DNA of 64,000 nucleotides from assembly GCF_020037015.1 (NCBI RefSeq), contig NZ_JAIQDE010000036.1:1-64000 (forward strand), read 5' to 3'. The stretch's first letter is position 1. The number at the start of each line of letters is the position of its first letter. Positions 55,224-59,182 of the stretch are shown here, piece after piece. Source of the stretch: Corallococcus sp. AS-1-6. Its GTDB lineage: Bacteria > Myxococcota > Myxococcia > Myxococcales > Myxococcaceae. Both the position numbers and the translations under genes were made by a program. A model generated the notes under the pieces. The model saw only the letters and a program-made list of their open reading frames with translations. It made no database searches and was not told the DNA's origin.

Positions 55224-56120
55224 ATGCGCTCGGGTGTCTCGGAGGCCCTCGAGGCCATGTTGGAAGCGATGGGGGAGCCGCGGGCCTCCCGCCTTCGCGT
55301 GGCGCCAGGGGTGCGTGAGGCGGTGTCGCGCGCGCTGGAGGAAGCCGCGTCGCTGGGAGGCGCCGCGCCGGAGCCGCTCGACTTCGCGCGGCACCTGGGC
55401 GAGCACCTGGCGAAGGCGGAGGACCCGCCGCTCGCGCTGGAGCGGCTGCACGCCAGGGACCTGGCGCTGGCGCTCGCGTGTACGCAGGGGCTGCCCGGCG
55501 CCGATGCGCGGTTCGAGGTGGAGGTCCTCCAGCGGATGCGGGTGCCCCTGTCGCGGATCCACCCCTCACCGGCCTTCGCGGACGAGGTGCTGCAGACGCT
55601 CCGGGCCAACCTGCTGATGCCGCGCGCGGACGCGCCGCCGCGGCTGCGGGGGTACGCGGGCGTGGGCTCGCTGGCGCAGTGGGTGAACATGGTGGGCGTC
55701 CGGCTGGCGCTGCGGCTGAGGAAGGCGCAGGGGGACGCGTCACGGGTGGAGGCGGAGGTGCTGGCGGCGCACCCCGCGCCGGGCGGGCTGGAGCTGAGCT
55801 TCATCCGCGAGGACGCGAGGGCGCACGTGAGGGCGGCCTTCGTGAAGGCGGTGGCCTCGCTGGATGACGAGGACCGGGAGCTGCTGCGCCTGCACTACGT
55901 GGAGCGGCTGTCGCTGGAGAAGATGGGGGCGCTGTACGACCTGCACAAGTCGACGCTCTCCCGGCGGCTGGGCGGGGTGCAGGAGACGCTGGAGAAGCGG
56001 ACGCGGCGCCTGCTGTCGGAGCGGCTGGCGCTGCGGGACGCGGAGCTGGAGAGCCTGGTGCGCACCATCCACGGAGGGTTGGACTTGAGCCTGTCGGGAC
56101 TGCTGGGAGGGCGTGGGTGA
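55224..56120 (+). CDS. Myxococcales-type sigma-70 family factor
   Basis: A 298-residue sigma factor of the kind found almost only in myxobacteria. The N-terminal 120 residues are an Ala/Glu-rich helical extension. Region 2 lies at about 140-200 (LRGYAGVGSLAQWVNMVGVR). Region 4 is clear at about 225-285: AVASLDDEDRELLRLHYVER, LSLEKMGALYDLHKSTLSRR. GGGAGGGACAGG lies directly before ATG 55224, which decides the start over upstream in-frame codons. The stop overlaps the kinase start by four bases (GTGA). The kinase has an anti-sigma zinc motif, so it probably controls this factor. Confidence 0.83.
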   Translation: MRSGVSEALEAMLEAMGEPRASRLRVAPGVREAVSRALEEAASLGGAAPEPLDFARHLGEHLAKAEDPPLALERLHARDLALALACTQGLPGADARFEVEVLQRMRVPLSRIHPSPAFADEVLQTLRANLLMPRADAPPRLRGYAGVGSLAQWVNMVGVRLALRLRKAQGDASRVEAEVLAAHPAPGGLELSFIREDARAHVRAAFVKAVASLDDEDRELLRLHYVERLSLEKMGALYDLHKSTLSRRLGGVQETLEKRTRRLLSERLALRDAELESLVRTIHGGLDLSLSGLLGGRG

Positions 56121-59100
56121 GCTGTCCCGAGGAGAACACGCTCGCGCGGTACGTGAACGGGCTGCTGGGGGCGGAGGGGATGCGCGAGGTGCGCGCGCAT
56201 GTGGCGGGCTGCGCTGAATGCCGGAGCGTGCTCGCGGCGCTGAGCGCGATGGAGACCCCGGCGCCCGACACGGGACCGCTCGTCACGGGCACGCGGGTGG
56301 GGCGCTACGTGGTGCTGGGGTTGCTGGGCGAGGGCGGCATGGGCCGGGTCCATGCGGCGTATGACCCGGAGCTGGACCGGAAGGTGGCGCTGAAGCTGCT
56401 GAACCCGGAGCGCCTGAGGGAGGACTCGCTGACGGAGGCGCGGCAGCGGCTGGAGCGCGAGGCGCGGACGATGGCGCGGCTGTCGCATCCGCATGTGGCG
56501 CAGCTCCACGACGTGGGGGAGTACCAGGGCCAGCTCTTCCTGGTGATGGAGCTGGTGGAGGGCGGCACGCTGCGGCGGTGGCTGCTGGAGAAGCCGCGCA
56601 CGCGAAGGGAGACGGTCGCGCGCTTCGTGCAGGCGGCGGAGGGGCTGGCGGCGATGCACGCGCTGGGCATCGTCCACCGGGACTTCAAGCCGGACAACGT
56701 GCTGCTGACGCGCGACGGGCAGGTGCGCATCACCGACTTCGGCCTCGCCAACGCCACGGTGGCGCGGGACGCGAGGTCCGGGCACCTGCCTCCAAGCGCG
56801 GAGGTCCTCACGCTGACGGGGACGGTGCTGGGGACACCGGCCTACGCCGCACCCGAGCAACTGCGAGGCGAGCGGGGGGATGCGCGCTCGGACCAGTTCG
56901 CCTTCTGCGTGGCCCTCCACGAGGCCCTCAACGGGCAGCGCCCCTTCGAGGGCGCGACGCGCGAGGAGCTGCTGGCGTCGATGGAGCGGCAGGCGGTGCG
57001 GCCCGAGCAGCCGGGCGTGCCGGGCTGGCTCAAGGCGCTGGTGCGCCGGGGGCTGAGCGCGGACCCCGCCCGCCGCTTCGAATCGATGGAGGCCCTGCGG
57101 GCCCGCCTCACACGGGACGCGGGGGCCTGGAAGCGCAGCGCCGTCGCGGCGGTGGTCGCGGGAGGCCTGGTGGGCCTGGGGTTCCTCCTGCTGGGGCCGG
57201 CGGCGGCGGCGCCGGACGAGACGTGTCAGGGCAGCGAGCGGCACCTCGCGGGCATCTGGGATGCCACCGTGCGCGAGTCCACGCGCCGGGCCTTCCTGGC
57301 CACCCGGGCTCCGGACGCGGAGGCCTCCTTCCAGGCCGTGGCCTCCACGCTGGACCGGTGGACCCGGGACTGGGCCCACGCGCACCGCTCCGCCTGCGAG
57401 GCGGCGCACGTTTTTGGTGAGCAGTCGGAGGCGGTGCTCGGGCTGCGGATGACGTGCCTGGACCGGCGGCTGGGAGCGCTGTCCCGGCTGACCGTGGCGC
57501 TCCAGGGCGCGGACGCGCGGACGGTGGAGCGGGGCTTCGGGTTGGGCGGTTCGCTGGGCGGCGTGGGGCGGTGCGCGGACGTGCGGACGTTGCAGGAGGC
57601 GGTGTCGCCCCCGGACGACCCGAAGGTCCGCGCGGAGGTGGACGCCGTGCGCGCGGAGCTGGCCCGGGCGCACGCGCAGATGCTCGCGGGCCATACGCCG
57701 GAGGCCCTGCGGATCGCGCTCCCCGCCCGCGAGCGCGCGCTCGCCACCCGGCATCGCCCCCTGGAAGCAGAGGCGCACCAGCTCTGCGCGTTCCTGCAGG
57801 AGGACTCCGGCGCGTTCGAGGACGCGCGCGAGTCGCTGGCGCGGGGCTCGCTGGCGGCCGAGGCCGGGCGGGAGCCGGGCGTGCTCGCGCGGGTGCTGAG
57901 GGCCCAGGCCTGGCTGCACGGGTACGGCCTGGGGCGGCCTCAAGAGGCGTGGCCCTTCCTGCACCGGGCGCGCGCGGTGGCCGAGACGCTCCGGGACGCG
58001 GAGCTGGACACGCTGCTGGACAACGTGCAGGCGGAGCTCCTGGAGCAGGAGGGCCGCTTCGCGGAGGCGGAGCCGCTGCTGCGCGCCTCGCTGGAGGCCG
58101 TCAGCGCGCGGGGACAGACGCACTCGCACGCGGAGCTGAGCGGCCGGCTGGGGCTGCTGATCCGCCATCAGGGGCGGCTGCTGGAGGCGAAGCGCTGGCA
58201 GGAAGAGGCGCTGCGCCTGCACGAGGAGCACTTCGGCCCGGCGCACCGCGACACCGGACGGGCCCTGCTCAACCTGGGCGGGACGCTGGCGCTCCTGGGC
58301 GAACTGGAGCGCGCCGAGTCCGTCCTCCAGCGGGCGCTCGGAATCCTTCGCCAGACGCTGGGCGGGGACAACCTGTCGGTGGCCCGGGCGTTGTCCAACC
58401 TGGCCGTGGTGTATTTCGAGTGGGGACACGCCGCCCGGGCGCGACAGGCCGCGGAGGAGGGCTGGGCCGTGGCGCGCAAGAGCGTGGCCGCGGACAGCCC
58501 GGTGCTGCTGGGGACGGCGTCGAACCGGGTGGGCATCCTGGGAGAGCAGGGGGCGCGGCGCATGGAGCTGGCGCACGCGCGCGGTGTGCTGGCGCATCGC
58601 GAGAAGGTCTACGGCGCTTCCCACCCGGAGGTGGCCCTGGACGTCCACGAGGTGGGGCGGTTGCTGCGCCTGCTGGGGCGGACGGACGAGGCGCGCGGCT
58701 TCCATGCCCGGGGTGTCGCGCTCCAGGAGGCCCTGGCCGCCAGGGGCGAGCTGGACGGCGCGGGGCTGCGCTCGCTGGCGGACGCGCTCCTGTTCCTGGG
58801 GCGGGTGGACGAGGCGCGGCGCCACGTGGAGCAATCGCTGGTGGAGATGGAGAAGGACCTGGGGCCCCTGTCGTCCGAGCGCATCGAGGCGCTGCTCGTC
58901 CTGGGTGACGTCCAGCTCGCCCGGGGCCGGCCCGCCGAGGCCCTGGCGCCGCTGAGGACCGCGCTGGAGGCCCTCACGGGCCGCCAGGTGGTCTCGGCGC
59001 GCGTGCCCAGGGTGCGTCGCCGTCTGGCGCGGGCGCTGCGCCAGACGGGAGCGGTGAAGGAGTCCTGCGAGCAGGCTCGGCGGGCCTGGGAGGAGCTGGC

Positions 59101-59182
59101 TGTCTGGCGTGCGGCCTATGCCCAGGAGACGCGGGAGGCCCGGGCCGAGCTGGGCCACTGTCCGGGAGGGGCGGTGCCCTGA
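56117..59182 (+). CDS. Ser/Thr protein kinase with anti-sigma zinc-finger head and TPR tail
   Basis: A 1021-residue membrane kinase. Residues 1-45 carry H28-x3-C32-x2-C35, the zinc motif of anti-sigma factors. The kinase domain runs from about 62 to 330: glycine loop GEGGMGRVH, Lys93 in VALKLL, HRDFKPDN at 187-194, DFG at 207-209 and APEQL at 245-249, all intact. One membrane helix follows at 341-360. The outer part (about 365-1010) holds tetratricopeptide repeats (LNLGGTLALLGELERAESVL, LSNLAVVYFEWGHAARAR). It starts at GTG 56117, coupled to the sigma gene. A signal sensed outside could be passed by phosphorylation to the sigma factor held at the zinc head; this is inference. Confidence 0.9.
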   Translation: MSCPEENTLARYVNGLLGAEGMREVRAHVAGCAECRSVLAALSAMETPAPDTGPLVTGTRVGRYVVLGLLGEGGMGRVHAAYDPELDRKVALKLLNPERLREDSLTEARQRLEREARTMARLSHPHVAQLHDVGEYQGQLFLVMELVEGGTLRRWLLEKPRTRRETVARFVQAAEGLAAMHALGIVHRDFKPDNVLLTRDGQVRITDFGLANATVARDARSGHLPPSAEVLTLTGTVLGTPAYAAPEQLRGERGDARSDQFAFCVALHEALNGQRPFEGATREELLASMERQAVRPEQPGVPGWLKALVRRGLSADPARRFESMEALRARLTRDAGAWKRSAVAAVVAGGLVGLGFLLLGPAAAAPDETCQGSERHLAGIWDATVRESTRRAFLATRAPDAEASFQAVASTLDRWTRDWAHAHRSACEAAHVFGEQSEAVLGLRMTCLDRRLGALSRLTVALQGADARTVERGFGLGGSLGGVGRCADVRTLQEAVSPPDDPKVRAEVDAVRAELARAHAQMLAGHTPEALRIALPARERALATRHRPLEAEAHQLCAFLQEDSGAFEDARESLARGSLAAEAGREPGVLARVLRAQAWLHGYGLGRPQEAWPFLHRARAVAETLRDAELDTLLDNVQAELLEQEGRFAEAEPLLRASLEAVSARGQTHSHAELSGRLGLLIRHQGRLLEAKRWQEEALRLHEEHFGPAHRDTGRALLNLGGTLALLGELERAESVLQRALGILRQTLGGDNLSVARALSNLAVVYFEWGHAARARQAAEEGWAVARKSVAADSPVLLGTASNRVGILGEQGARRMELAHARGVLAHREKVYGASHPEVALDVHEVGRLLRLLGRTDEARGFHARGVALQEALAARGELDGAGLRSLADALLFLGRVDEARRHVEQSLVEMEKDLGPLSSERIEALLVLGDVQLARGRPAEALAPLRTALEALTGRQVVSARVPRVRRRLARALRQTGAVKESCEQARRAWEELAVWRAAYAQETREARAELGHCPGGAVP

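Follow-up and report, generated by a model that had tools for sequence, protein, structure and literature searches.

Can a transmembrane kinase hold the sigma factor that is encoded beside it? The question is raised by a gene pair in a 64,000-nucleotide stretch of Corallococcus sp. AS-1-6 (positions 1 to 64,000 of contig NZ_JAIQDE010000036.1; hereafter the window), in which the gene for a sigma factor overlaps that for a Ser/Thr kinase whose N-terminal head resembles an anti-sigma factor. The initial annotation of this DNA had proposed that kinase, sigma-holding head and extracellular tetratricopeptide repeat (TPR) sensor form one polypeptide, acting as a direct switch from signal to promoter. 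Comparison of such pairs among the Myxococcota suggests that the sigma factor and the headed kinase evolved as matched partners, and that the head binds its sigma factor is a well-supported inference.

A zf-HC2 head on kinases beside one sigma family

The head of the window kinase exceeds the Pfam cut-off for zf-HC2 (Table 1) and carries the motif H28-x3-C32-x2-C35 together with C3, the expected fourth ligand; all of 52 diverse heads match zf-HC2 at E 0.1 or better. Against solved structures the window head alone gives a single match, 3hug_B (E 1.2e-4), which we take to be RslA with its sigma factor. A profile of the 52 heads gives six matches in the Protein Data Bank, led by 3hug_B (1.2e-7) and followed by two entries of ChrR (1.2e-4 and 1.3e-4), DdvA (1.5e-4; presumably the M. 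xanthus protein, and labelled an antisigma factor in its record), a CHAT-domain protein (0.0024) and RsiW (0.0045). The likeness of the H-x3-C-x2-C motif to anti-sigma factors, claimed in the initial annotation, is therefore borne out by profile search, and the four-base gene overlap that it described lies where it had been placed.

An AlphaFold2 (AF2) model of the head contains helices at residues 6–13, 19–31 and 33–46 and then, starting at residue 47, coil that runs up to the kinase domain; predicted local distance difference test (pLDDT) scores are 69–86 for residues 1–40 and below 50 from residue 44, and the coil thus lies in a low-confidence stretch. Beyond the 12 residues after the last cysteine, the linkers that follow the heads average 23.5 residues and are 17% proline. 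In class I anti-sigma domains a three-helix bundle binds sigma4, a fourth helix binds sigma2 and blocks the polymerase, and some members bind no zinc (PMC7406223; this and the other papers are cited from excerpts). As read from sequence and model, the head has the zinc motif and the N-terminal three-helix bundle of this class (ASDI/ZAS), and zinc binding is predicted.

A zf-HC2 head is also found on non-kinase proteins of the source genome (G000). A protein at L172 (6826–9981; G000:C76, about 333.8 kb) has a zf-HC2 head fused to TPR and CHAT domains and adjoins an ECF sigma match, the same design of anti-sigma head plus effector with a protease-like domain; another at L173 (5520–7889; G000:C11) has the head fused to a FecR domain and likewise adjoins an ECF sigma match.

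Five sigma factors of the source genome score over the TIGR03001 cut-off, and a zf-HC2 head is present on 5 of its 107 kinase genes (matches over the Pfam cut-off, with three split matches merged). Every one of the four kinases found within 5 kb of a TIGR03001 sigma factor is headed (hypergeometric P = 9.7e-7). Only 3 of 48 other sigma-70/ECF matches have any kinase within 5 kb, a count that omits ten weaker sigma matches, one of which has an internal stop and a kinase about 2 kb away. Three close kinase relatives in the same genome, away from TIGR03001 sigma factors, are headless and have low-complexity N-termini.

TIGR03001 matches over cut-off occur in 74 of the 146 Myxococcota genomes examined. 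A survey of the gene pair in myxobacteria, suggested in the initial annotation, found that 98 of 120 sampled loci have, no more than 5 kb away, a kinase whose head bears H-x3-C-x2-C, and the pair is a conserved, co-inherited unit; together with the enrichment in the source genome, this count led us to reject chance neighbourhood. The kinase lies upstream on the same strand at 28 loci and divergently at 28, with others arranged convergently (7) or with the sigma gene first and the kinase at a distance (12). That annotation had taken frequent separation of the two genes as evidence against their coupling, and here the outcome is mixed: the partners are neighbours at most loci, yet the tight sigma-then-kinase layout accounts for only 23 of the 98.

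The 120 loci were chosen by us, 65 from listed matches and 55 from 26 other genomes, the latter being every over-cut-off match there (25 genomes have any). The 65 comprise all five of the source genome, all over-cut-off matches of G001, G003, G007, G010, G013 and G014, two of G008, one each of G009 and G015, all of G091 and G097 and, among the matches listed, 7 of 10 of G145, 5 of 7 of G126 and 7 of 11 of G113; 25 TIGR03001 matches below cut-off were left out. Loci L070 and L071 were picked after their kinases were known, and without both the count is 96 of 118. A neighbouring kinase was counted if it scored at least 100 bits with a purpose-built hidden Markov model, and 99 of the 109 so found bear the motif; in a loose positional search of these 99 the ligand set is C/H-H-C-C, with the first ligand C in 83 and H in 16. 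The ten motif-less kinases include three with weak head-like N-termini that lack the ligands beside TIGR03001 sigma factors (L134, L147 and L148; best-domain E 2.2e-5, 0.0057 and 0.015 with Z = 100, all weak matches).

All 14 named orthologues of the window pair, the closest being that of Citreicoccus inhibens (90%), have a kinase start codon that overlaps the sigma stop by 4 bases and the full C-H-C-C set. No sigma–kinase fusion was found in the 120 loci, checked stop to stop, and no shared upstream element was clear by eye across 15 orthologues. The window subfamily is represented in M. xanthus strain AM003 by two paralogous pairs, and the system is thus present in a tractable species. In the window-kinase orthologues of Myxococcus eversor and M. 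qinghaiensis (L158 and L164) repeated units resemble the surroundings of DFG, and the activation segment appears to have expanded in tandem. A genome record under the name Comamonas sp. KCTC 72670 (L168) holds a typical myxobacterial pair, with a sigma factor 66% identical, and may be a misnamed genome.

The window sigma factor scores 276 bits against TIGR03001 (NCBIfam 'Myxococcales family 1'; curated cut-off 154.6) and 35.4 bits against the general extracytoplasmic function (ECF) model, under its cut-off of 42.9; the TIGR03001 model is matched by all 24 members of a diverse alignment. An AF2 model (mean pLDDT 79.5) has an N-terminal helical domain, sigma2, sigma4 and a two-helix tail, and its top Foldseek matches are ECF sigma factors, many complexed with anti-sigmas, none of them below E 1e-3. 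As judged from its sequence the window kinase is a Hanks-type Ser/Thr kinase with intact catalytic residues, and the five listed in Table 1 are invariant among 24 diverse headed kinases; a GHKL (HATPase) fold, the type of the anti-sigma kinases RsbW and SpoIIAB, gave no Pfam match at E up to 1.

The interpretation proposed at the outset is partly supported: the anti-sigma-like head, the kinase domain and the TPRs lie on a single chain, with a hydrophobic stretch placed between the kinase domain and the TPRs. The predicted extracellular position of the TPRs rests on that one stretch, and an extracellular TPR sensor is not general, since 22 of 94 testable headed kinases have no transmembrane-like stretch (defined as a 19-residue window of hydropathy above 1.6 in a span of 160 residues), five of them being narrow misses at 1.47–1.58. 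Thirteen of the 14 members of one kinase-tree clade lack such a stretch; the one member scanned (L038, 784–4728) is a headed kinase with nSTAND1 NTPase and FGE-sulfatase domains.

Table 1. Coordinates and properties of the sigma–kinase gene pair and its parts, in window positions.
Feature	Coordinates	Strand	Properties
Sigma factor gene	55224..56120	+	298 aa; TIGR03001 Sig-70_gmx1; ATG 55224, TGA 56118–56120
Sigma N-terminal helical extension, residues 1–62	55224..55409	+	Helices 2–16, 20–26, 30–42, 51–62; 10-residue blocks with pLDDT 82–96 (AF2)
Sigma C-terminal tail, residues 263–298	56010..56117	+	Helices 272–284, 286–294 (AF2); S277 and S289 candidate phosphosites
Overlap of sigma stop and kinase start, GTGA, 4 bp	56117..56120	+	Read from sequence; start codon in same place in 14/14 named orthologues
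Headed transmembrane Ser/Thr kinase gene	56117..59182	+	1021 aa; GTG start 56117
Anti-sigma-like head, residues 1–46	56117..56254	+	PF13490 (zf-HC2) 27.8 bits, cut-off 22.2; ligands C3, H28, C32, C35; three predicted helices
Pkinase domain, residues 64–328	56306..57100	+	153.4 bits; catalytic K93, E115, D189, N194, D207 present
Predicted single transmembrane helix, about residues 340–365	57134..57211	+	19-residue hydropathy windows up to 2.31, starting at residue 342
Main TPR region, about residues 663–909	58103..58843	+	PF13424 TPR_12, five stretches, and related TPR models; putatively extracytoplasmic

Co-evolution of head, kinase and sigma factor

Distance tests were performed with 96 of the 98 paired loci (domain score of at least 200 bits and sufficient length) and with a non-redundant set of 66 pairs, obtained by removing sigma factors at least 75% identical. 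Across the 96 pairs the distances correlate at 0.744 for sigma and head, 0.728 for sigma and kinase domain, and 0.617 for head and kinase domain; the kinase domain is much longer than the head, yet its correlation with sigma is about equal. None of 2000 within-genome partner shuffles (79 pairs, 21 genomes) reached the observed sigma–head value. Once the kinase is controlled for, sigma and head have a partial correlation of 0.546, and the same partial with subsets of the kinase reaches at most 0.258 for contiguous equal-sized windows and at most 0.443 for 300 random column sets. In the 66 pairs the raw values are 0.471 (sigma–head), 0.528 (sigma–kinase) and 0.372 (head–kinase), and the sigma–head partial is 0.348 versus at most 0.299 in random kinase column sets.

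When the sigma factor is divided by region, the 66 pairs give 0.200 for head and sigma4 versus −0.005 for head and sigma2, and 0.351 for kinase and sigma2 versus 0.054 for kinase and sigma4; kinase distances also track the C-terminal tail. The rank-based interaction is 0.50 (bootstrap 95% confidence interval 0.28–0.72), with none of 300 bootstraps at or below 0. This division fits the published rule that anti-sigma helices 1–3 bind sigma4 and helix 4 binds sigma2 (PMC7406223).

Pairs may also persist without linkage. Seven of the 12 sigma factors whose complete 5 kb surroundings contain no kinase scoring 100 bits or more (L040, L044, L048, L053, L055, L061 and L067) form one clade, sister to the L089 sigma factor of G145 (SH-aLRT, an approximate likelihood ratio test, 100; quick tree), which has an adjacent headed kinase. 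The fifth headed kinase of the source genome has no sigma neighbour in the surrounding 19 kb, and the unlinked kinases of G000, G003, G013 and G014 form a clade that is sister to the L089 kinase (97, quick tree). Because the quick tree warned of a long-branch artefact at this join, a second tree of 26 rows was calculated under a mixture model, in which the join has support of 100/98. In BLAST the unlinked kinase matches L089 best (57.7% identity, 400 bits; the next match has 289), as does its head when searched by itself (60.9%). The matching sigma and kinase trees indicate that the pair was separated physically and both halves kept, as they are in all four genomes examined for both.

Headed kinases and over-cut-off sigma factors number 5:5 in G000, 5:5 in G003, 5:4 in G013 and 3:3 in G014, all Corallococcus-group genomes, where a headed match is one that begins at position 1 or 2 of the head profile; the profile was built from sigma-linked kinases and very different heads could escape it, although an unbiased PF13490 search of the source genome finds the same five headed kinases. 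Unlinked kinases were sought in these four genomes, with three others that have an unlinked sigma factor left out, and the trees include 63 sigma factors and 62 kinases (quick) or 26 kinases (mixture model). One locus of G013 (L049) has a single sigma factor with two tandem headed kinases. The unlinked sigma gene at L040 (5827–6483) stands beside metallophosphoesterase-like (GDVHG) and alanine-racemase-like genes, as read by eye.

Possible modes of sigma control

We consider it evenly balanced whether the two proteins form a dedicated signalling module whose kinase serves as sensor and also holds the sigma factor, with the head on sigma4, the kinase on sigma2 and the tail, and signal-dependent release. 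In such a module the three-helix zinc head would dock on domain 4 of its cognate sigma factor, which would be tethered to the membrane and kept from reaching the −35 element, and domain 2 and the C-terminal tail would be contacted by the kinase domain in place of helix 4. The extracytoplasmic TPRs might sense a signal that turns the kinase on, and the sigma factor would be freed once its tail, the kinase or the head is phosphorylated. S277 and S289 are the best candidate sites for the kinase as judged by conservation: among the 120 TIGR03001 sigma factors position 277 is S in 110 and S/T in 111, and position 289 is S/T in 107 and S in 99.

The acidic residues of sigma2.2 are kept in this family (D/E at position 121 in 119 and at position 120 in 101 of the 120), and no conserved S/T was found at positions 118–119 in the same set. 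The sigma factor thus looks competent and in need of an inhibitor, and we rejected activation of the ECF43 kind, by restoration of sigma2.2 charge. Of the two hallmarks of ECF43-type sigma factors, a gene adjoining that of a Ser/Thr protein kinase is seen in the window and all 14 orthologues; a sigma2.2 without the acidic motif, with Thr/Ser instead, is not what the window sigma family has.

With three helices and no helix 4, the head seems to hold the sigma4-binding half only, and it is perhaps like half of an anti-sigma factor with the kinase as the other half. A split-grip anti-sigma kinase, in which the head holds sigma4 and an inactive kinase domain replaces helix 4 on domain 2 and the tail as a lineage-wide architecture, is possible but doubtful. 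With an inactive kinase domain as the substitute for helix 4, activation would open the grip and phosphorylate the sigma factor in one step; if this is true, the sensor kinase would be its own anti-sigma factor, and head and sigma would diversify together into many insulated channels.

Several observations weigh against a sigma-holding kinase. The sigma2-blocking helix 4 of class I is absent from the head, where the model has coil in its low-confidence stretch, and so the head by itself may dock without full inhibition; the AF2 model of head and kinase together is poor (15 sequences, mean pLDDT 49.1), and only the head helices were taken from it. Twenty-two of the 120 loci have no motif-bearing kinase within 5 kb, including the 12 with a complete but kinase-less neighbourhood; a further four have no kinase on a cut contig, and six have a motif-less kinase, five of these on cut contigs. 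In the non-redundant set the raw sigma–kinase correlation exceeds that of sigma and head. The division between sigma2 and sigma4 is drawn from correlations of distances, a measure open to distortion by rates and saturation, and residue-level mutual information places 26 of the top 100 pairs in sigma4, about what is expected from 67 of 236 columns. Mutual information therefore does not localise the contact, and the domain split is a strong hint rather than a demonstration.

The strongest rival, drawn by analogy with PknS–EcfK, is that the head is a docking arm only, through which the kinase would recruit the sigma factor and activate it by phosphorylation, as in PknS/EcfK and PknT/EcfP, with no sequestration. 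This would account for a three-helix head without helix 4, for kinase distances that follow sigma2 and the sigma tail, and for the serine at position 277, and PknS–EcfK, the closest studied system, consists of a transmembrane kinase phosphorylating its sigma factor (PMC13147305). However, ECF43 sigma factors lack the sigma2.2 acidic residues and need phosphate there (PMC8999054), whereas TIGR03001 sigma factors keep them, and the solved members of the head family are mostly anti-sigma factors; we regard docking and activation as rather unlikely.

That the head binds something else, by self-association or through another protein, with the genes together only through co-transcription, is improbable. 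Although zf-HC2 also heads non-kinase proteins (CHAT, FecR) and residue-level covariation does not place the contact, the divergent and convergent loci stay neighbours though no shared transcript is possible, the unlinked pair is co-retained, the head correlates better with the sigma factor than with its own kinase domain in both the full and the non-redundant sets, and the zf-HC2 CHAT protein likewise adjoins an ECF sigma match. Release of the sigma factor upon zinc loss from a ZAS head, with the kinase as only a membrane anchor or second input, would suit the C/H-H-C-C ligands and the similarity to ChrR and 3hug_B, but is very improbable given the three sigma-adjacent kinases with weak head-like N-termini that lack the ligands, and catalytic residues that are invariant in 24 diverse members and needless for a mere anchor.

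Comparison with known systems

The pairing of a sigma factor with a headed kinase is undescribed in the open-licence literature searched, including the excerpts of PMC8999054, PMC7406223, PMC8103513, PMC13147305, PMC7694542, PMC11032199, PMC3696898 and PMC9138534. Among literature leads on anti-sigma domains inside kinases, only Rv1364c emerged (PMC9138534, excerpt), and there was nothing in the excerpted account of the planctomycete kinome. The sigma and kinase parts belong to known families and zf-HC2 is a known domain. To our knowledge, targets are known for few of the Ser/Thr kinases of the Myxococcaceae. These bacteria encode about 100 such kinases per genome (PMC7694542). Should the head identify the partner, a group of these kinases could be assigned a named sigma factor as predicted direct output, with a single step leading from outside signal to promoter. 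If the proposed module is correct, anti-sigma sequestration and sigma phosphorylation, usually treated apart, would be united in one protein.

The head is like those of the class I (ZAS) factors RslA, ChrR, DdvA and RsiW, all encoded beside a sigma factor, in its sequence and zinc motif, but it is without helix 4 and is fused to a Ser/Thr kinase domain and then TPRs. The substrate of partner-switching kinases of the RsbW/Rv1364c type is an anti-anti-sigma factor. As in those proteins, sigma regulation and kinase function share one polypeptide here (for Rv1364c, PMC9138534), although the fold is that of a Hanks kinase, with no match to a GHKL ATPase. In the actinobacterial RshA/RseA and PknB systems a zinc anti-sigma factor is phosphorylated by a Ser/Thr kinase and gives up its sigma (PMC8999054); kinase and anti-sigma factor are separate proteins there, whereas kinase and anti-sigma-like head are one chain here. 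The ECF43 systems PknS–EcfK of Xanthomonas citri and PknT–EcfP of Vibrio parahaemolyticus also have a Hanks kinase gene beside that of a sigma factor, which the kinase phosphorylates (PMC13147305, PMC8999054), and PknS is a transmembrane protein that has its TPRs in the periplasm and carries an N-terminal segment of 83 aa with no assigned role (PMC13147305). The excerpts of these papers mention no zinc or anti-sigma head, and the myxobacterial pair differs from both systems in its sigma family and in the sigma2.2 acidic residues that it keeps.

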